Position numbers and translations under genes: made by a program. Shown here in pieces: positions 4,235 through 53,923 of a stretch of 64,000 bases of DNA. Location of the stretch: positions 1-64,000 of the IMG/VR virus record IMGVR_UViG_3300010396_000011. One strand, 5' to 3'. Source of the DNA: a virus. The notes beneath the pieces are model-generated. The model made no database searches. It was not told the DNA's origin and was given only the letters and a program-made list of their open reading frames with translations. Positions within the stretch are counted from its first letter, which is position 1. Every line of letters starts with the position of its first letter.

Positions 4235-4489
4235 ATGTTGATCATCACCAGACAGACATACCGCTTCACGGACAAGGACAAGTCGGATATCTTCGTCAAG
4301 CCGTCGAAGGAACCGCAGAGCGTTCCCGACGATCTGAAGACGTATCCGCTGTTCGAAATGGCCGCGAAAGACGGCTCCGTGACCGTGGTCGAGATTCCCG
4401 GCGCACCGGCGCCCGAAACTGCGCCCGCTCCGGAACCGGAGCCGACTCCGGACGCAAAGCCCGATCCCAAACCCGCCAAGGGCAAGTAG
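4235..4489 (+). CDS. Small head-module protein with Pro/Glu-rich tail, unknown
   Basis: An 84-residue protein starting at ATG 4235 after the capsid gene. Residues 1-55 look like a small beta domain (MLIITRQTYRFTDKDKSD). Residues 56-84 are a charged tail of alternating Pro, Ala, Glu, Asp and Lys (PAPEPEPTPDAKPDPKP). Similar small proteins follow the capsid gene in many tailed phages, but I do not recognise a named family. A strong terminator lies 26 bp beyond its stop. Confidence 0.6.
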   Translation: MLIITRQTYRFTDKDKSDIFVKPSKEPQSVPDDLKTYPLFEMAAKDGSVTVVEIPGAPAPETAPAPEPEPTPDAKPDPKPAKGK

Positions 4490-4514
4490 CCATTCCCCTC
4501 CTTGAGTGCAACTT

Positions 4515-4542
4515 GAGGGGCGGTAATCCGCCCCTCGTTTTT
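4515..4542 (+). terminator. Rho-independent terminator after capsid genes
   Basis: A perfect 9-bp GC-rich stem (GAGGGGCGG / CCGCCCCTC) with a TAAT loop is followed by GTTTTT. It lies between 4235-4489 and the connector gene at 4545, so it probably lowers expression of everything after the capsid gene. The next ATG is only 3 bp beyond the T run and has no ribosome site of its own. Confidence 0.85.
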
Positions 4543-4544
4543 CC

Positions 4545-5258
4545 ATGGAACCATCGCTCAACCTTTTTTTCGACGATCTCTGTAGCGGCTTCGGCTGGGA
4601 CTGGGGCGCGCTCACCGTGGGCGTCGTCTGCGGTACCAACCCGCCGTACGGAGTCGCCGATTTCTTCGCTGTCTTCCCCAAGTTCTTCGGGGTAGCGACC
4701 GCAATTCAGGTCGCGACCACAACTGGATCTGCCGTGGTGCAAGGCACTGGTACGACGTGGCTATCCTCTGGATTCTCCGCAGGGCAACTGGCGAACTCGC
4801 CGGCATTCCCGGCTGGGACGCTCATCACCAGCGTGGACTCCAATACGCAGATCACGCTCTCTCAACCGGCAACCGCCACGGGAAACGCCAGCATTTCAGT
4901 GTTCGCGGCGCCGCTCGTGCCGATGGCCGTTCTCGCGATGTACATCACGCTCGCGTCCGGCTCGCTGGTTCAGGCCCGCTGGCTGGATACGTGGTTATAC
5001 GCGATGAGCTTATATGTCGCGCACTTCGCCACCCTGTACCTGCAATCCGATGGCAGCACATGCACCGCGCCGGGAGCGGTCGCCGCATCGGGACTCGCCC
5101 GCGGTATCGCGACTTCAAAGGGAGTCGGTGGCGTGAGTTTCGGATTCCAGCCGGTCCAAGGATTGGAGCAGTGGGCGGCGTGGACCCTCACCAGCTACGG
5201 AACGCAACTCGCGAGCTTCGCTAAGACCGTGGGCGCGGGACCGGTTTGGGTGCCTTGA
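4545..5258 (+). CDS. DUF4054-like head-tail connector with beta insertion
   Basis: A 237-residue protein. The outer parts resemble DUF4054 connector/adaptor proteins: a leading FAVFPKF, then helices with WLDTWLYAMSLYVAHFATLYL and a late GVGGVSFGFQ motif. Residues about 55-122 interrupt this fold with a Thr/Ser/Gly-rich beta module related to those in the genes at 2428 and 15248. DUF4054 proteins are normally about 130-150 residues, and the insertion explains the extra length. ATG 4545 directly follows a terminator and lacks a clear Shine-Dalgarno, so the start is the least certain point. Confidence 0.65.
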   Translation: MEPSLNLFFDDLCSGFGWDWGALTVGVVCGTNPPYGVADFFAVFPKFFGVATAIQVATTTGSAVVQGTGTTWLSSGFSAGQLANSPAFPAGTLITSVDSNTQITLSQPATATGNASISVFAAPLVPMAVLAMYITLASGSLVQARWLDTWLYAMSLYVAHFATLYLQSDGSTCTAPGAVAASGLARGIATSKGVGGVSFGFQPVQGLEQWAAWTLTSYGTQLASFAKTVGAGPVWVP

Positions 5259-7255: not shown

Positions 7256-8677
7256 ATGTCCACCTCTTTGCCGCTTTCCTCCATCGTCGGAGTCAGCGTA
7301 GTCGTTTCGCCGGCCGCTTCTCCAGGGCCGAGTTTTAACCAGGCGCTCATCGTCGGGCCAAGCACCGTGATTCCGTCCGTCGGCGCGAACTCGCGAGTCC
7401 AGCTTTACCAGTCGTTGCTCGCTATGCAGCAGGCTGGTTTCAGCATCACGTCGCCCGAATACCTCGCCGCAGAGCTGTACTTCGGCCAACAGCCTCAGCC
7501 CACCTTCCTGTGGATCGGGCGGCAGGATCTCACCGCGATTGAGACCGCCATCGTCGGCGCCAGCGGCGGAACCGGATATACCGTGGGAGACATTCTCACC
7601 GTGGTCCAGTCGGGCGCGAGCGCCGGGCAGTTCAAAGTTACAACCATCGGCGGCGGCGGCGTGGTAACGGGCATCTCGCGAGTCGCTGGTGGCACGGGAT
7701 ACTCTGTCGCGACTAACCTTGCGACCACCGGCGGCACCGGAACCGGGGCCGAGATCAATGTCTCAACGATTGGAGAAAGCGCGGTCGAAGCGGTTTCCGC
7801 CTGTCGCCTCGCCCAGCCCGACTGGTACGCCTGCATGTTCGTGGGCACCGCGGTGGATGCGGATCACCTCGCGATCGCGGCATTCATCGAAGCCGCCTCG
7901 CCTGCCTCGGTGTACTTCCTGACGAGCGGATCCAGTGCCGTGCTGAACGGGACGGCGGGAAACCTGTTCGCCGAACTCCAGACGGCGAATTACCGCCGCA
8001 CCTTCAGCGTGTATTCGACGACGCAGGGCGGCACGTTCCCCAACAATACGTACGCCTCCGCCGCGCCGATGGGCATGGCTATGGGCCGCAACAACAAAGC
8101 CGTCGGTTCGTACTTTGATGTGATGTTCAAACTCATATCGGGAGTGGCGGCCGAGCCCCTGACGCAAACCCAAGTGAACAGCATCTGCGGGACCATTGAC
8201 CGCTCTTCGAATGGGCTCAACGGAAATGTCGTGCTGGAATATGCCGGGAACCGTATTTGGCTCCAGCCCGGCACTACGGCGAGCGGCGCGTGGTTCGACG
8301 AGGTGCTGAACCTCGACATGCTCGCGGCCGACATACAAAACAGCGCCATCAATCTGTTGACCAGCGTTCCCGCCCTGCCGATTACCAATGCGGGCGTGGC
8401 GACCATGCAGGCTGTTATTTCTGACGCGTGCGTGCGCGCACAGCAAATCGGCTTTATTGCTTCTTCTGGCCAGTGGGGTGGCGTGCAGATCGGAACCGGA
8501 CGGGCCGCTATTGAGAACGGCGACGCGCTGCCCAACGGGTACGCGCTGTATGCGCCGGCGGTATCGACGCTTTCCAGCGGGCAGCGCTCGGCACGCCTTC
8601 TTCCGCCGATCACGGTTGCGGTCATTGAGGCGCAGAGCGGCCATTCGCTCAGCGTGAACGTCAACGTCCAACGATAG
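7256..8677 (+). CDS. Contractile tail sheath protein (DUF3383) with inserted beta domain
   Basis: A 473-residue protein from ATG 7256 (ribosome site AAAGGAAG); an upstream GTG in frame is less likely because it lies within the previous gene. N-terminal LPLSSIVGVSVVVSPAA, internal VYSTTQGGTFPNNTYASA, and the C-terminal SARLLPPITVAVIEAQSGHSL suit DUF3383 sheath proteins, which drive tail contraction. Residues about 98-175 are a Gly/Val/Thr-rich insertion with two GGTGY motifs (GGTGYTVGDILTVV and GGTGYSVATNLATT). It probably folds as an extra surface domain. Its presence makes this a myovirus-type tail. Confidence 0.85.
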   Translation: MSTSLPLSSIVGVSVVVSPAASPGPSFNQALIVGPSTVIPSVGANSRVQLYQSLLAMQQAGFSITSPEYLAAELYFGQQPQPTFLWIGRQDLTAIETAIVGASGGTGYTVGDILTVVQSGASAGQFKVTTIGGGGVVTGISRVAGGTGYSVATNLATTGGTGTGAEINVSTIGESAVEAVSACRLAQPDWYACMFVGTAVDADHLAIAAFIEAASPASVYFLTSGSSAVLNGTAGNLFAELQTANYRRTFSVYSTTQGGTFPNNTYASAAPMGMAMGRNNKAVGSYFDVMFKLISGVAAEPLTQTQVNSICGTIDRSSNGLNGNVVLEYAGNRIWLQPGTTASGAWFDEVLNLDMLAADIQNSAINLLTSVPALPITNAGVATMQAVISDACVRAQQIGFIASSGQWGGVQIGTGRAAIENGDALPNGYALYAPAVSTLSSGQRSARLLPPITVAVIEAQSGHSLSVNVNVQR

Positions 8678-44051: not shown

Positions 44052-44210
44052 ATGGTCAAGCGAAAGACAAAAGAGACTGCGGCGGTATTCACGGCGTCTC
44101 AACTTGCCGTGGTGATCGAGCTAGTGCGCAAGCAACCACAGCGGGCCAGCACTCCGACCCCGCCGACTACGACGCGGCGGCTGGAAGTGATGAAGGCGAG
44201 GACGGCATGA
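44052..44210 (+). CDS. Small basic protein, unknown
   Basis: A 52-residue protein, with GGAGGG 7 bp before ATG 44052. Helical and basic (SQLAVVIELVRKQPQRAS), followed by a Thr/Pro segment. It overlaps the pentapeptide gene by 4 bp (ATGA). Not recognised. Confidence 0.5.
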   Translation: MVKRKTKETAAVFTASQLAVVIELVRKQPQRASTPTPPTTTRRLEVMKARTA

Positions 44211-44881
44211 TCGAAATTCTCAATCGCTACACACGCGCGGTGATCTACGCGAGTGCCAGCGCCGAAACGATAGCCCAAGCGGTAGTTGAAGCGGCGAGGG
44301 TCCGCGCGAACCTCAGCTACGCGGACCTCAGAGAAGCGAACCTCAGCGGCGCGGACCTCAGAGAAGCGAACCTCAGCGGCGCGTACCTCAGCCGCGCGTA
44401 CCTCAGCCGCGCGGACCTCAGAGACGCGGACCTCAGCGGCGCATACCTCAGAGACGCGGACCTCAGAGACGCGTACCTCAGCCGCGCGGACCTCAGAGAC
44501 GCGGACCTCAGCGGCGCGTACCTCAGCCGCGCGTACCTCAGCCGCGCGGACCTCAGAGACGCGGACCTCAGCGGCGCGTACCTCAGCCGCGCGAACCTCA
44601 GAGACGCGGACCTCAGCGGCGCGAAAACCGATGCCGCCACCAAGATGGACCGCTGGTCGCTTGTGATTGTCGGATCGCGCCATGTCATCACGGCAACAGA
44701 CCGTCTGGTTGCCATCGGTTGCCAGCGGCACTCACTGGACTGGTGGCTGGAGAACTACAAGACAGTAGGCTCCGAGAGCGGCTATAGCGCCGAAGAAATC
44801 GAAGAGTACGGCGGCCACCTGAAGCGGATCGAAGCCGCCGCGAACGCCCTGAAATCCGATCTCGTTGCGAGGACGGCATGA
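44207..44881 (+). CDS. Pentapeptide repeat protein
   Basis: A 224-residue protein. Residues about 34-139 are over 20 pentapeptide units of the A(D/N/Y)LRx or A(D/Y)LSx type (ADLREANLSGADLREANLSG), which should form a right-handed four-sided helix of about five turns. Residues 140-224 are a separate helical domain (DRWSLVIVGSRHVITATD, HLKRIEAAANALKSDLVA) common in phages. Proteins of this shape can mimic DNA (Qnr, MfpA), but no such target can be shown here. The DNA repeats are nearly identical, so the number of units is likely to vary. Confidence 0.85.
   Translation: MIEILNRYTRAVIYASASAETIAQAVVEAARVRANLSYADLREANLSGADLREANLSGAYLSRAYLSRADLRDADLSGAYLRDADLRDAYLSRADLRDADLSGAYLSRAYLSRADLRDADLSGAYLSRANLRDADLSGAKTDAATKMDRWSLVIVGSRHVITATDRLVAIGCQRHSLDWWLENYKTVGSESGYSAEEIEEYGGHLKRIEAAANALKSDLVARTA
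44311..44622 (+). repeat. 15-bp coding tandem repeats
   Basis: Near-identical units of GCGNACCTCAGMGRC type encode the pentapeptides. Because the units lack stops in every frame, all other frames are open as well; those are artefacts. The identity suggests recent expansion by slippage or recombination. Confidence 0.8.
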
Positions 44882-46703: not shown

Positions 46704-46725
46704 GGCTATTCGGATTTGAGTGTGC

Positions 46726-47991
46726 TCAATGACCACAACTAAACAATTCGACCAGATGTGGCAGGGACACACCGTAGTCATCGGTGCTTCGGAGCCAGCA
46801 CTCCACCAGTCCAGAGAACGCTTTGGGCTTCTCAACGTGCTTGGCTTGGCCGAAGAGAACCTTGGCTCTGATGGCTTCAAACGAGTAGCCACGGCCCATT
46901 CGGTTGGCGACCTTCGCCATGCCGTTCACGGCTTCAGTGTAGGCGTTCGTGACCTTGTAGTCGAAGTAGTTGAAGATTTCGGGACGCCAATTGTCCACGG
47001 CCCGGATGACCTCAAAGAAGGCATCGCAGGTCTTCTTATCGCCTTGAAGGTATTCCTTCCATGTGTCGTACAGGTCCATCGCTTCGGCTTTGGTCTTGCA
47101 GTCGTAGATCTGGAAGAAGTCTTCTTTGGCGTTGTATGCGTTGAACAGGATCGGGACCAAATCAGTCCACTCCTGCATTGCCCGGAACTCTTCGGGCGTG
47201 AGATCGTGGCGGCGTTTGAGAAGCAACTTACGGCCTCTCAGGAGCTTGCGCCGTCCTTTCAAATCCAGTCCTTCACGGAAGGTCTTACGGATCGTATCGA
47301 GTGCGTGGTTCGCCAGCTTCACCACATGGAACACGTCTACGATACAGATGGCATTGGGCAAAACGTCCAGCACGGCATCCCGGTACGGCTTCCACATGTC
47401 CATGGTGACGACCTGAATGCGTTCTTTCTCAGGCAAGCATTGGAGCCACTTCACGACGGTGGGCTTGTTCCTATCCACCAGAATGTCAACGACAGTGTTC
47501 TCAGCAACATTGGTCAACATGCAACGGGGTTTGCGGATCAGGAACAGTTCGTCGATCCCAAGCCAAACCGGAGTTTCCGGCATCCAGCCGTTGTTCAGGT
47601 TGCGAACGTGGTCAAAGAAGATGTTACGGACGGTCTTTTCGTCCCGGCCCACGTCGCCAGCAACTTGGGTGAAGGTGCGTTCCAGACTCAGGGTCTGGAT
47701 GTGGTGCAACAGGCGAGTGGTCATCTGCCGCTTGTCGTCCATGAAGTAGAGCGGCTGGAAGAACGTCTTCTGGCATTCCAAGCATTTGTACCGCTGGCGT
47801 CGGACTTGAATCATGGCACGCTTGCCATGGATCGGGGTGTCGATGAAGCACTGGATCTGAACGCCGTGCCGCTTCAGTTGCGGCCCTTCAATGCCACACC
47901 GGACACAAAACTCAACGGGCTTGGTGAACTCGGCAGTAATCACCATATCGTGCTCATCTTCCCTTCGATCCAGCACGTTGTAGCCTTCCAT
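46726..47991 (-). CDS. ISL3-family DDE transposase
   Basis: A 421-residue protein from ATG 47991 (EGYNVLDRREDEHDMVI); the frame is open further upstream but runs into the passenger gene. An N-terminal zinc-binding region has CVRCG and CLECQKTFFQP, then an HTH-like segment. The catalytic core shows WLGIDELFL, VVTMDMWKPYRDAV and a late NAYTEAVNG carrying the acidic residue. These are hallmarks of ISL3-family transposases, and the length is normal. The stop overlaps the left terminal repeat. The opposite strand is also open for 447 codons; that is a shadow. Confidence 0.9.
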   Translation of the reverse strand: MEGYNVLDRREDEHDMVITAEFTKPVEFCVRCGIEGPQLKRHGVQIQCFIDTPIHGKRAMIQVRRQRYKCLECQKTFFQPLYFMDDKRQMTTRLLHHIQTLSLERTFTQVAGDVGRDEKTVRNIFFDHVRNLNNGWMPETPVWLGIDELFLIRKPRCMLTNVAENTVVDILVDRNKPTVVKWLQCLPEKERIQVVTMDMWKPYRDAVLDVLPNAICIVDVFHVVKLANHALDTIRKTFREGLDLKGRRKLLRGRKLLLKRRHDLTPEEFRAMQEWTDLVPILFNAYNAKEDFFQIYDCKTKAEAMDLYDTWKEYLQGDKKTCDAFFEVIRAVDNWRPEIFNYFDYKVTNAYTEAVNGMAKVANRMGRGYSFEAIRAKVLFGQAKHVEKPKAFSGLVECWLRSTDDYGVSLPHLVELFSCGH

Positions 47992-48059
47992 TCCCAGAAT
48001 GTTTGGCAAGAGAACAGGATAACAAGATCGGATTCTTGTGTGCTCACCGGGAGTACCAG

Positions 48060-48725
48060 ATGAGTACCATGCGATTCGCTTACGCAGATCCGCCATACAT
48101 TGGACAGGCGAAGAAGCACTACTCGCATGATCCGGCGTGCGCCGAAGTAGACCACCGGGAACTGATTGATCGGCTCGTGGCCGAATACCCCGATGGGTGG
48201 GCGTTGTCTCTTAGTTCTCCATCGCTCAAGTACATCATTTCGCTTTGCCCGGACGATGTACGGGTGATGCCGTGGGTGAAGCCGTTCTGTTCCTTCAAGC
48301 CGGGGGTCGGAGTGGCATACGCATGGGAGCCAATCATCGTTCGTGGTGGTAGGCCACGGACACGCCAACAGGCCACCATTCGGGATTGGGTAGAGGCCAA
48401 CATCACGCTTCAGAAGGGTCTGTCCGGTGCAAAGCCCAAGCACGTCTGCTACTGGCTCTTCGATGTATTCAATGTACTGCCGGGGGATAGCCTTGATGAC
48501 TTGTTCCCCGGCACTGGCATTGTTGGACGTTGCTTCGCTGAGTACACGTCCAAGCCAACCATTACAGACAGTCCGCTCTTCCAGTTCGATGAACGAAGTG
48601 CGATGGCAGTAGAAGACTTGGAGCGTCAGGGATACCACTTTAATGAGATCCCTGTTGGTGACAAATTACTGCGGATTCCAGTGTGCCCTAACACAGTGAA
48701 ATCCGAAGAGAGAACGAATGAATGA
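48060..48725 (+). CDS. DNA adenine methyltransferase, transposon passenger
   Basis: A 221-residue protein from ATG 48060 (GGGAG upstream). FAYADPPYIGQAKKHY near the N-terminus is the DPPY catalytic motif. SLDDLFPGTGIVGRCF near residue 150 is the SAM-binding FxGxG motif. The order DPPY then FxGxG suits beta-class amino-methyltransferases. It lies between an internal copy of the transposon end and the right terminal repeat, so it moves with the element. It might protect the element or phage from restriction. Recognition sequence unknown. Confidence 0.75.
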   Translation: MSTMRFAYADPPYIGQAKKHYSHDPACAEVDHRELIDRLVAEYPDGWALSLSSPSLKYIISLCPDDVRVMPWVKPFCSFKPGVGVAYAWEPIIVRGGRPRTRQQATIRDWVEANITLQKGLSGAKPKHVCYWLFDVFNVLPGDSLDDLFPGTGIVGRCFAEYTSKPTITDSPLFQFDERSAMAVEDLERQGYHFNEIPVGDKLLRIPVCPNTVKSEERTNE

Positions 48726-48769
48726 ACAGCGAACAATATGCGAAGCAACACACAAGAATCCGAATACCC

Positions 48770-50374: not shown

Positions 50375-51415
50375 ATGGCAACTCAAACGACAGCACCACC
50401 GAACAACGCGGTAGCTAGACAGCAGGCGCCTACTGGCCTCGCGACCGTCCAGAACTTGCTCGAAAAATTCAAGGGCCAGATTCAGGTCGCCCTGCCCAAG
50501 CACATGACTCCGGAGCGCATGATTCGCGTAGCGCTCACGGCTATGTCGCAGAATCCGCTACTGCAAAAGTGCGATCCACTGACGGTCTGCGCCTCGGTAG
50601 TGCAGGCATCGATTCTCGGCCTGGAGCCGAACAGCGCTCTCGGCGAGGCCTATCTGATCCCGTTCTGGAATCACAAGGGAAATGGCGGGCGCGGCGGCTA
50701 CGATTGCCAACTGCAGATCGGCTACAAGGGGCATACGAAGCTCGCTCGTAACTCCGGCGAAATCGCAATGATCGATGCGCAGCCCGTGTTCGAGGCTGAC
50801 GAATTCGACTGCGAAAAAGGAGACTCGCCGTACCTGAAACATAAGTGGGCGAAGACTGGAAGCCGTGGGAAGATCATCGGGTATTGGGCCGGATTCAAGA
50901 CGAAGGATGGTACCTTCTCTTTCGAATACTGGCCGTTAGAGCAGATCTACGAGCACCGCGACAAGTACAGTCAGGGAGCGTACAAGCGCGAGCGCGGCAA
51001 GGTCGTTCTCGACGAAAAGGGGCAGAAGGTTCTTCAGGGTCCGTGGAAAGATAGCCCTGACTGGATGTGCCGCAAGACCGTCCTCATTCAGGCTCTAAAA
51101 CTGGCACCGAAGTCCGTGCACCTGGCAACTGCGATCGCTCTCGACGAGGCTCACGACGCCGGCATCCGCCAGCAGTTCAGCATCGACGTTCCGCTGGAAT
51201 TGCAGCCTCCGGTGGAAGCGGAAGACACCGATCCGCCATTGCAAGAGCCGCAACGCACCGGATCGTCGGAAGCCGCGCCGAAACCCTGTACCACGAAGCC
51301 GCCATCGATTCTCGACGACAGCGACGAATTCGACGGCGACACCCTGCTCTGGCAGAAAGTGAAGGGCGTCGTATACCACCTGAATTCGGACGGCAAGGGT
51401 TACCACAAGCATTAA
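50375..51415 (+). CDS. recT: RecT single-strand annealing protein
   Basis: A 346-residue protein with the RecT core: ALPKHMTPERMIRVALTAM, QNPLLQKCDPLTVCASVVQA, GLEPNSALGEAYLIPF and YDCQLQIGYKGHTKLARNSG, then DSPDWMCRKTVLIQALKLAP. It anneals complementary strands during recombination-dependent replication. The C-terminal 70 residues are acidic and Pro-rich, perhaps for SSB or exonuclease contact. Normal length. Confidence 0.9.
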   Translation: MATQTTAPPNNAVARQQAPTGLATVQNLLEKFKGQIQVALPKHMTPERMIRVALTAMSQNPLLQKCDPLTVCASVVQASILGLEPNSALGEAYLIPFWNHKGNGGRGGYDCQLQIGYKGHTKLARNSGEIAMIDAQPVFEADEFDCEKGDSPYLKHKWAKTGSRGKIIGYWAGFKTKDGTFSFEYWPLEQIYEHRDKYSQGAYKRERGKVVLDEKGQKVLQGPWKDSPDWMCRKTVLIQALKLAPKSVHLATAIALDEAHDAGIRQQFSIDVPLELQPPVEAEDTDPPLQEPQRTGSSEAAPKPCTTKPPSILDDSDEFDGDTLLWQKVKGVVYHLNSDGKGYHKH

Positions 51416-51509: not shown

Positions 51510-51521
51510 TGAGCAAAAAAC

Positions 51522-51974
51522 GGCTATTCGGATTTGAGTGTGGAGAAACGTTGAAATGACATTGCATCCAAAATCGGATTCTGGTGTGGCTTCTGGTGAC
51601 GGTCGGGAAAGTATGCCGTTACGGGCCGTCGTTCAGGACGGCAATCTAGTCGTCTCCATCGGTATCCGCACGCTGGCTTTTGCCTTTGAGAATGGCGAGG
51701 GAAACAACCCGTATGACGAGTCTTCAGGGAAGTTCAAGCGGGAGTTCCAGATAGCCGATCCTCTTCAATTTGCCGAAGATGTCTGCCACGAAATCAACGA
51801 TGAGGAAGAGGACGGCAGCACGCCGCTGACCCGATTCTTGGATTACATGATGGACAAGGCTGTCGATAACGGCAGTCTCGGAATCTTGGACCCGGAAGAC
51901 GATGAACCACACGCAGCGAATCCCGATGGAGTTGACGGTGATGGAGCAAAAACCACACCAGAATCCGAATAGCC
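51522..51974. mobile_element. 453-bp non-autonomous element related to the ISL3-like transposon
   Basis: Left end GGCTATTCGGATTTGAGTGT is identical over 21 bp to the left end of the 46704 element. The right end, read inward, is GGCTATTCGGATTCTGGTGT. Flanking 8-mers are CAAAAAAC and CAAAAAAA, a near-perfect duplication in an A tract. There is no transposase inside; it carries one open frame. An inner copy of the end motif lies at 51572-51587. It would need the transposase encoded 4 kb upstream, or a host copy, to move. Confidence 0.75.
51556..51972 (+). CDS. Acidic protein carried by the small element
   Basis: A 138-residue protein from ATG 51556 (GGAG 10 bp upstream). PLRAVVQDGNLVVSIGIRTL and KREFQIADPLQFAEDVCHEI suggest a compact alpha/beta protein, with an acidic tail (DPEDDEPHAANPDG). 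The first and last codons run through the terminal repeats, so its ends are supplied by the element itself. No family recognised. Confidence 0.5.
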   Translation: MTLHPKSDSGVASGDGRESMPLRAVVQDGNLVVSIGIRTLAFAFENGEGNNPYDESSGKFKREFQIADPLQFAEDVCHEINDEEEDGSTPLTRFLDYMMDKAVDNGSLGILDPEDDEPHAANPDGVDGDGAKTTPESE

Positions 51975-51993
51975 CAAAAAAACAAGGAGAAAT

Positions 51994-52315: not shown

Positions 52316-52440
52316 CCACCCTCCGTCGCCTCTGGTGCCGCGCCTTCCATCGCAAAACCCTTTGGCCGATCCACGGAACTTACATTTGCGCGGTCTGCAA
52401 GTTGGTGCATCCCGCGTGGGAGTCTGAGGTGGTTCGGTAG
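52312..52440 (+). CDS. Small CxxC protein
   Basis: A 42-residue protein with RRLWCRAFHRKTLWPIHG and CAVCKLVHPAW, a minimal zinc finger. It ends one base before the methyltransferase GTG. Called on junction and motif. Confidence 0.5.
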   Translation: MTTLRRLWCRAFHRKTLWPIHGTYICAVCKLVHPAWESEVVR

Positions 52441-53918
52441 TGTGGCTACACGTCCCATCCGAATGCTCTCCCTGTTCTCCGGCGCCGGTGGACTTGACCT
52501 CGGAATCCGAATCGCTCTACCAGGCGTTCGAACACTCTGTTACGTGGAGAGGGAACTCGCGGCCTGCCAGATCCTGGCGGCGCGCATGGCCGATGGATCG
52601 GCTGAGCCAGCACCCATCTTTACGGACATTGCCGCCTTCGATGGCCACCCGTGGCGTGGAGCAGTGGATCTCATTGTGGGCGGATTCCCTTGCACCGACC
52701 TGTCCGTCGCCGGGAAACGCGCCGGCATCACCGGAGAACACTCGGGACTCTGGTTTGAATACCTCCGCATCATTCGCGAGGTGCAACCCCGATGGGTCTT
52801 TATCGAGAATGTGCCGGCAGTTATCGCTGATCCCGCTGGAGGAATCGTACTCGGAGGGCTTGCCGAAGTCGGGTTCGATGCGGAATGGATATCTCTTCGA
52901 GCGTCCGACGTGGGAGCGCCCCACAAGCGGGAGCGGGTCTTTATCCTGGCCGTCTCCAAGGAGCGAGGATTCCGAGAGTTGCGGCAATCATCCGGGAGCG
53001 AACGATTCGTTGACGGGAATGGCTGGCCCGTGGAACACGCCGTCAACGGAGGACACCAAGACGGATGGACCAGCGGTTCTGGAGAGGTACGGAACGGCCG
53101 CCATGAAGACGTGCGACATGAGACTTCGGAATCAAATCGAGGCATGGGCGACACCGCGGGCGAACGATCCAGAGAAGCGCGGGAACTTCGACCCCACGGA
53201 CCCGATGACGGGGATAGCGGGGCAGGCGGCGATGTGGACGACTCCGCAATCCCACGACACAGCACCGGGAGATCCGAGCCGAGTAGGGCGGTACGGGACG
53301 GAGCACGGCGGCCGGAATCTGACGGACGACGTGATGCTGTGGCGGACGCCGGATGCTCCGGGGAGCGGCGATCCAAGGAATCGCCAGAACTCAATCGGCA
53401 ACGGACATCAGGTGACGATTGCCGAGCAAGCGGAGAGCTTCTGGTACACCCCGAACACCCCGAACGGCGGACGCCCTGTATCTGCGGACGTTGTGGAATC
53501 GAAGGGGCAGACGGAGGACGGCAAGCGGCAAGTGGGGCTGGAGAGTCAGTCGCGGCATTGGCCGACGCCGGCGGCGAGGGATTACAGGAGCGAAGCGGGG
53601 AGCGAAGCGACGGTAACGCACTTCAACCGCGCGGCGGGGCCGAGTTTGCCGGCGATGATCGAGCACGGATTTTCCCTCCCGGACCCGCAGACCGAGACGG
53701 ATGGGCAGAGCTCTTGCGGACGCACCCGCACTTCGCGCCTGCGATTGAACCCGGCCTTCGTGTGTCTGTTGATGGGCTGGCCCTGGTGGTTGACGAGGCC
53801 CGAACCGATCAGCTTCGCGCGGCGGGAAATGGAGTCGTGGCTCTCTGCGCAGCGCTGGCATTTACGGTCCTTGCTCACCGCGCGGGGCTTGACCTGTCGG
53901 AATTCGGAGGACTGTTGA
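52440..53918 (+). CDS. Overlapping frame with conserved-looking WPTP repeats
   Basis: In the frame two bases before the methyltransferase frame (equivalently +1), 492 codons are open. The product from about residue 80 contains ADSLAPTCPSPGNAPASP, SLSRMCRQLSLIPLEESYSE, SGSMRNGYLFERPTWERPTS, repeated WATPRAND, WTTPQSHD and WPTPAARD motifs, and RLNPAFVCLLMGWPWWLT. I recall similar proteins annotated next to or over phage C5 methyltransferases. ADA-type motifs of the methyltransferase frame coincide with WPTP motifs here. It is either truly dual-coding or a recurrent shadow. No good ribosome site is visible. Confidence 0.4.
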   Translation: MWLHVPSECSPCSPAPVDLTSESESLYQAFEHSVTWRGNSRPARSWRRAWPMDRLSQHPSLRTLPPSMATRGVEQWISLWADSLAPTCPSPGNAPASPENTRDSGLNTSASFARCNPDGSLSRMCRQLSLIPLEESYSEGLPKSGSMRNGYLFERPTWERPTSGSGSLSWPSPRSEDSESCGNHPGANDSLTGMAGPWNTPSTEDTKTDGPAVLERYGTAAMKTCDMRLRNQIEAWATPRANDPEKRGNFDPTDPMTGIAGQAAMWTTPQSHDTAPGDPSRVGRYGTEHGGRNLTDDVMLWRTPDAPGSGDPRNRQNSIGNGHQVTIAEQAESFWYTPNTPNGGRPVSADVVESKGQTEDGKRQVGLESQSRHWPTPAARDYRSEAGSEATVTHFNRAAGPSLPAMIEHGFSLPDPQTETDGQSSCGRTRTSRLRLNPAFVCLLMGWPWWLTRPEPISFARREMESWLSAQRWHLRSLLTARGLTCRNSEDC

Positions 53919-53923
53919 AGTGA
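52442..53923 (+). CDS. DNA cytosine-5 methyltransferase
   Basis: A 493-residue protein from GTG 52442; ATG 52463 is an alternative start at the conserved MLSLFSGAGG. Motif I FSGAGG (12-17), motif IV GGFPCTDLS (catalytic Cys84), motif VI ENV (122-124), motif VIII HKRERVF (161-167) and a C-terminal AAGNGVV (motif X-like) are all present. Residues 175-440 are a low-complexity polar region where the target-recognition domain should be. That region is overprinted by another open frame. It probably methylates phage DNA to avoid restriction. Confidence 0.85.
   Translation: MATRPIRMLSLFSGAGGLDLGIRIALPGVRTLCYVERELAACQILAARMADGSAEPAPIFTDIAAFDGHPWRGAVDLIVGGFPCTDLSVAGKRAGITGEHSGLWFEYLRIIREVQPRWVFIENVPAVIADPAGGIVLGGLAEVGFDAEWISLRASDVGAPHKRERVFILAVSKERGFRELRQSSGSERFVDGNGWPVEHAVNGGHQDGWTSGSGEVRNGRHEDVRHETSESNRGMGDTAGERSREARELRPHGPDDGDSGAGGDVDDSAIPRHSTGRSEPSRAVRDGARRPESDGRRDAVADAGCSGERRSKESPELNRQRTSGDDCRASGELLVHPEHPERRTPCICGRCGIEGADGGRQAASGAGESVAALADAGGEGLQERSGERSDGNALQPRGGAEFAGDDRARIFPPGPADRDGWAELLRTHPHFAPAIEPGLRVSVDGLALVVDEARTDQLRAAGNGVVALCAALAFTVLAHRAGLDLSEFGGLLK

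Follow-up and report, generated by a model that had tools for sequence, protein, structure and literature searches.

A transposase-less mobile insertion cassette with ISL3-type ends carries a conserved gene in two unrelated phages

A 453-bp segment of a phage genome (positions 51522 to 51974, + strand, of the window, the whole 64,000-nucleotide stretch of viral DNA that was analyzed) is very probably a mobile insertion cassette that is mobilized in trans by an ISL3 transposase, most likely that of a neighboring element in the same phage or of a close relative. The cassette has ISL3-type ends and a target-site duplication, encodes no transposase, and is present at a different site in an unrelated phage.

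Results

The first-pass annotation of this DNA had placed the boundaries of the cassette exactly to the base. As is expected of a mobile insertion cassette, the segment is bounded by inverted repeats of an insertion sequence (IS) family: all specified end-motif bases are matched at both ends, and both ends match those of a larger ISL3 element in the same phage. The left terminal repeat, GGCTATTCGGATTTGAGTGTG (51522 to 51542, + strand), is identical over 21 bp to the left end of that element (46704 to 46724). The right terminal repeat (51953 to 51974, - strand) is an inverted copy, 86% identical over 22 nt, in agreement with the close inverted copy described earlier. In the 67.8-kb virus record, GGNTATTCGGATT occurs four times, always as an element end (four ends of two elements), and the reversed pattern, used as a control, occurs zero times. 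The near-identical 8-mers previously noted on either side, CAAAAAAC on the left (51514 to 51521) and CAAAAAAA on the right, are a target-site duplication. The sequence that follows the element is CAAAAAAAC (51975 to 51983); the two 8-mers differ because there is one extra A in a homopolymer on the right side, presumably a homopolymer slip.

The cassette lies between recT (50375 to 51415, + strand; PF03837, E = 5.5e-47) and the next small gene, where the first reading of the sequence had placed a new gene. It has the same direction as the operon, and its cargo is therefore probably transcribed with the operon. The gap between the small and the larger element is 2.75 kb, and 3.4 kb separates the cassette from the transposase gene. 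When we used recT as a query against viral contigs and phage records, we found no relatives and no empty site for the insertion in the window.

There is no internal transposase, and the cargo frame is the only frame of the cassette. Its ends are formed by the repeats, as the first reading of the sequence had it: it opens at a GTG within the left repeat (51538) and closes at a TAG within the right repeat (51970 to 51972), 2 bp from the cassette end. The ATG at 51556 gives a protein of 138 amino acids (51556 to 51972, + strand), and the ATG at 51613 is an alternative start. In a dozen relatives, transposase frames or others likewise end at a TAG supplied by the repeat.

By scanning 2.9 million viral contigs, we found a second copy of the cassette (L007/L010, contig 3300047160_004532). 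It is also 453 bp long, is 93.8% identical, and lies at a different site, flanked by a perfect 8-bp duplication, ATTATTTC. The cassette is the sole blastn match between the two phages. A comparison of the window frames (120 codons or more) with the second phage gave matches only for those of the element and for a 33-residue stretch. The second copy splits a 220-codon HNH_3 gene (insertion at L007:2967), and the HNH_3 frame stays open once the flanks are joined with one copy of the duplication. Thus, the cassette inserted independently in an unrelated phage. We found no P0002-like transposase in the 67.4-kb contig of the second copy, a record that may be a fragment; its helper transposase could be in the host.

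The 28 differences between the two copies all fall at positions 62 to 422; the copies are identical over their first 61 bp and their last 31 bp. The chance of every difference falling in the middle is (361/453)^28 = 0.0017. The ends have thus remained unchanged while the middles have become about 8% different. The cargo frame has a dS of 0.149 and a dN of 0.049, a ratio of 0.33 (Fisher p = 0.007). This frame of 138 residues is under purifying selection, which bears out the low dN/dS that had been proposed as a check, and the passenger gene is maintained in both copies.

The cargo protein matches PHROG 21508 and 31817 (E = 4.1e-7 and 1.1e-6, respectively; residues ~19 to 116), which are families of unknown function, and its core domain begins at about residue 20. 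Searches against Pfam, plasmids, and PADLOC gave no match, and the structure model has a mean pLDDT of 42. Free-standing homologues are found in the Acidobacteriota phage Tunturi_2 and in Vibrio phages, and two more are found in viral contigs (alignment query A2). We saw no ISL3 ends near these free-standing homologues, which have only the core domain in common, and no recT beside those examined. The case named at the outset as one that would speak against mobility, the segment as a fixed part of unrelated recT operons, was thus not found. One homologue (35% identity, E = 8e-14), in coliphage Fraca, adjoins a transposase within an ISL3 element with the duplication AAATTAAG; a search for its empty site gave only partial flank matches. 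An HNH gene also adjoins the Fraca element, as an HNH gene is split by the second copy of the cassette. The neighbors of cargo homologues include, in one phage group, a DNA ligase gene and, in another, recombination-associated and exonuclease genes, a hint of DNA metabolism. A role for the cargo in DNA metabolism or counter-defense is a weak suggestion from this context. The homologue in Tunturi_2 is the nearest clue to the host and hints at an Acidobacterium.

The candidate source of transposase is the larger ISL3-type element (46704 to 48769), which is 2,066 bp long and has a perfect 8-bp target duplication, CAAGTTAA, as ISL3 elements do. When its flanks are joined, a single open frame spans the site. 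Its transposase (46726 to 48096, - strand) has the ISL3 arrangement of a DDE domain with zinc ribbon and helix-turn-helix: it matches DDE_Tnp_ISL3 (PF01610, E = 1.6e-58) and PF13542 (6.6e-9), and its match to PF14690 (3.5e-5) is slightly short of that profile's cut-off. The true start is probably nearer 47991, judged by eye from relatives. The passenger (48060 to 48725, + strand) is a DPPY-type adenine methyltransferase-like protein, recognized by weak profile matches and a DPPY motif. An extra copy of the end motif (48029 to 48042, + strand) lies where the transposase and methyltransferase genes diverge and is possibly an operator or a relic. Two further end motifs stand face to face near the right end (48672 to 48705); one of them is the subterminal motif of this element (48692 to 48705, - strand), 58 bp inside the right end. 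These extra copies may form an operator for self-regulation.

We also observed a feature of the cassette that had been overlooked: a second, subterminal end motif, CGGATTCTGGTGTG (51575 to 51588, + strand), 47 bp inside the left end and in the same orientation. Among elements recovered by end pattern and duplication, 18 have a second CGGANNNNNGTGTG motif inside one end in the same orientation as the outer copy. It is 46 to 47 bp from the outer motif in 10 elements, 56 to 58 bp in 7, and 68 bp in 1, steps of one helical turn of DNA; shuffled interiors would be expected to have about 0.1 such motifs per 12-bp bin. Most transposase-encoding elements have the subterminal motif, as do the 453-bp element and its second copy, and it is absent from many other transposase-less elements. 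We had considered the motif at 51575 as a relic of an older end and dropped this idea on account of the fixed placement at 46 to 47, 56 to 58, or 68 bp across elements. That placement therefore favors a second site, predicted to be bound by the transposase. At the variable positions of the ends, the cassette has TTTGA and TTCTG and the larger element has TTTGA and TTCTT; no other listed element has the pair TTTGA/TTCT[G/T].

To survey the wider family, we scanned viral contigs and bacterial genomes for the end pattern and paired ends by their 8-bp duplication. This gave 41 end pairs with a duplication, against 4 in four offset controls. Removal of duplicate loci left 23 elements that lack a P0002-like transposase; viral contigs contain 13 of them and bacterial genomes 10. 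Among these, L053 and L074 each have one weak end, and L060 and L080, two of the longer bacterial elements, might encode a transposase that has diverged beyond detection. Metagenome 3300047160 is the origin of several of the loci studied. The transposase-less phage elements carry C5 or N6/N4 methyltransferases (L035, L045, and L053), a Mom-like modification protein (L019), or members of PHROG families of unknown function. Transposase-bearing elements carry methyltransferases (L028 and L047), Lar-like proteins (L013 and L020), and PAPS-reductase-like proteins (L027, L040, and L057). Many cassettes of the set carry predicted DNA-modification genes. One 980-bp element (L022:6078-7057) derives by deletion from an L013-type element (L013:1734-3711): most of its transposase is lost, and it has its own 8-bp duplication. 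It is a snapshot of an autonomous element becoming a cassette. One transposase-less element was found on two contigs (L034/L046) at 97.4% identity.

Several further arrangements were observed in the survey. Two different Bradyrhizobium genomes have transposase-less, ISL3-ended elements with DUF29 genes (L063:4844-5951 and L091:6893-7598). One phage contig, L014, has two different transposase-less elements (4361 to 5032 and 8033 to 8604) whose only common sequence is a 24-bp stretch near one end. At L096:890-5250, several end motifs form a mosaic around a methyltransferase cassette, beside an ISL3 transposase 54% identical to that of the window; the mosaic suggests end swapping.

A relative in Vibrio phages was found with both occupied and empty sites. 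A 2,484-bp ISL3 element with a methyltransferase gene is present in phages K256 (L108:21085-23568) and K251 g2 (L110:19439-21922); the copies are 100% identical in different phages and at different sites, with the duplications GAAAAGAG and GAAAAAAG. The joined flanks of the K256 element matched other isolates, such as K303, at 800 of 800 bases, which is an exact empty site. At least 80% of this joined-flank query was covered by 68 records, and the 40 that were listed were all full-length and identical. On this comparison, the isolate collection records a recent inter-phage transposition of the K256-type element. Because the copies are identical and the empty sites exact, elements of this family evidently move between phages in nature.

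Two other features of the window were seen. At 52440 to 53923, two same-strand frames of ~490 codons overlap over their full length, one matching a C5 methyltransferase (PF00145) and the other phrog_1008; this could be dual coding, frameshifting, or a misleading profile. At 44207 to 44881, a pentapeptide-repeat-like frame (ADLRDADLSGAYL repeats) has long open frames on the opposite strand.

Discussion

We propose that an ISL3 transposase acts on the cassette in trans, most likely one made by the element at 46704 to 48769 or by a close relative. The transposase would bind the terminal repeats and also the subterminal site, 47 bp in from the left end, and would move the cassette into AT-rich 8-bp targets, which would be duplicated. 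These targets would lie in other DNA of the host cell, such as that of co-infecting or co-resident phages, so that transfer between phages would take place in co-infected cells. Here the insertion would have taken place between recT and the gene after it, in the operon direction, and the cargo would be expressed with the operon. The first-pass annotation had suggested a passenger-only derivative mobilized in trans by the nearby transposase. Judging from the copy at another site, the lack of an own transposase, and the matching end bases, mobilization by the neighboring transposase is likely and well supported. Four observations count against the explanation as a whole: the duplication is off by one A; no transposase was found in the contig of the second copy, a record that may be a fragment; the recT query turned up no empty site for the insertion in the window; and the paired site is at 58 bp in the larger element and at 47 bp in the cassette.

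A genuine cassette might instead be served by a different ISL3 transposase, from the host chromosome or another phage, the neighbor being there by coincidence in a phage prone to acquire elements of this kind. For many transposase-less elements we found no P0002-like transposase on the contig, so that a helper can be located elsewhere, and the difference in subterminal spacing is in keeping with a different helper. However, the two spacings are one helical turn apart, a difference found across the family, and the variable bases of both ends match those of the neighbor and of no other listed element. We therefore consider a different helper unlikely, though worth keeping in mind. It seems improbable to us that the cassette is a dead relic, derived by deletion from a cargo-carrying ISL3 element, that made a single move and is now immobile. 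L022 shows that such derivatives arise, and the extra base in the right duplication copy would fit this reading, but the same transposase-less form has inserted separately at least twice, its ends are unchanged while its middles differ by about 8%, and the subterminal site has been kept.

We also asked whether this could be an ordinary phage gene, with chance or regulatory repeats, that spread by homologous recombination. Its gene family is usually free-standing in phages and without such ends, as this would predict. However, the two host phages have no flanking homology, both insertions have 8-bp duplications, the second interrupts an HNH gene whose frame stays open when the flanks are joined, and chance end pairs with a duplication are rare (the 41 against 4 of the offset controls). 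We rejected chance repeats and homologous exchange on the pair controls, the absent flanking homology, and the open HNH frame, and we give this explanation hardly any credence.

MIC231A1 has been described as mobilized in trans by the IS231A transposase (PMC3913671). The cassette that we describe is a mobile insertion cassette in this sense (PMC3913671); what is new is the ISL3 ends, the phage carrier, and the phage gene. Like MIC231/IS231A of Bacillus cereus, mic-qnrD, and mic-qnrS2, it consists of a gene within IS-type inverted repeats, with a target duplication and without a transposase. However, the known cassettes have IS231 or unassigned ends and lie in bacterial or plasmid DNA, and the duplication of mic-qnrD is 2 bp, whereas here the ends are of ISL3 type, the duplication is 8 bp, and carrier and cargo are both phage. 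The neighboring element resembles the ISL3 passenger-gene IS (transporter IS), with an ISL3 transposase, imperfect GG...CC ends, 8-bp duplications, and a passenger; the 453-bp element differs from these in having no transposase. Miniature inverted-repeat elements (MITEs) are likewise small, transposase-less, and moved in trans, but they have no conserved gene, while the cassette has coding capacity in a conserved frame under purifying selection. The K256/K251 g2 element shares with the cassette the end family, subterminal site, 8-bp duplication, a cargo gene, and a phage carrier, and differs in encoding its own transposase and in its methyltransferase cargo. In a limited literature search, we did not meet a helically stepped subterminal site or a repeat-supplied stop codon for ISL3-family IS.

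Phage genomes are mosaics built from unrelated pieces, which raises the question of how small genes pass from one phage to an unrelated one. Although insertion sequences are considered rare in phages, temperate phages that carry transposases are over-represented among recent mosaics (PMC8136500). The cassette and its family offer a concrete and testable route: the elements are compact, with recognizable ends and 8-bp duplications, and can be both searched for and assayed. The second site, with its helical spacing, can serve as a signature, and the Vibrio phage isolates, in which sites are occupied in some and empty in others, are a ready experimental system. Tentatively, these elements may form a two-tier economy, although we would not yet bet on it, in which phage-borne autonomous ISL3 elements also move transposase-less, single-gene cassettes, from a pool enriched for DNA-modification and anti-restriction genes. 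If this is true, counter-defense genes would circulate among unrelated phages by transposition and not by recombination.
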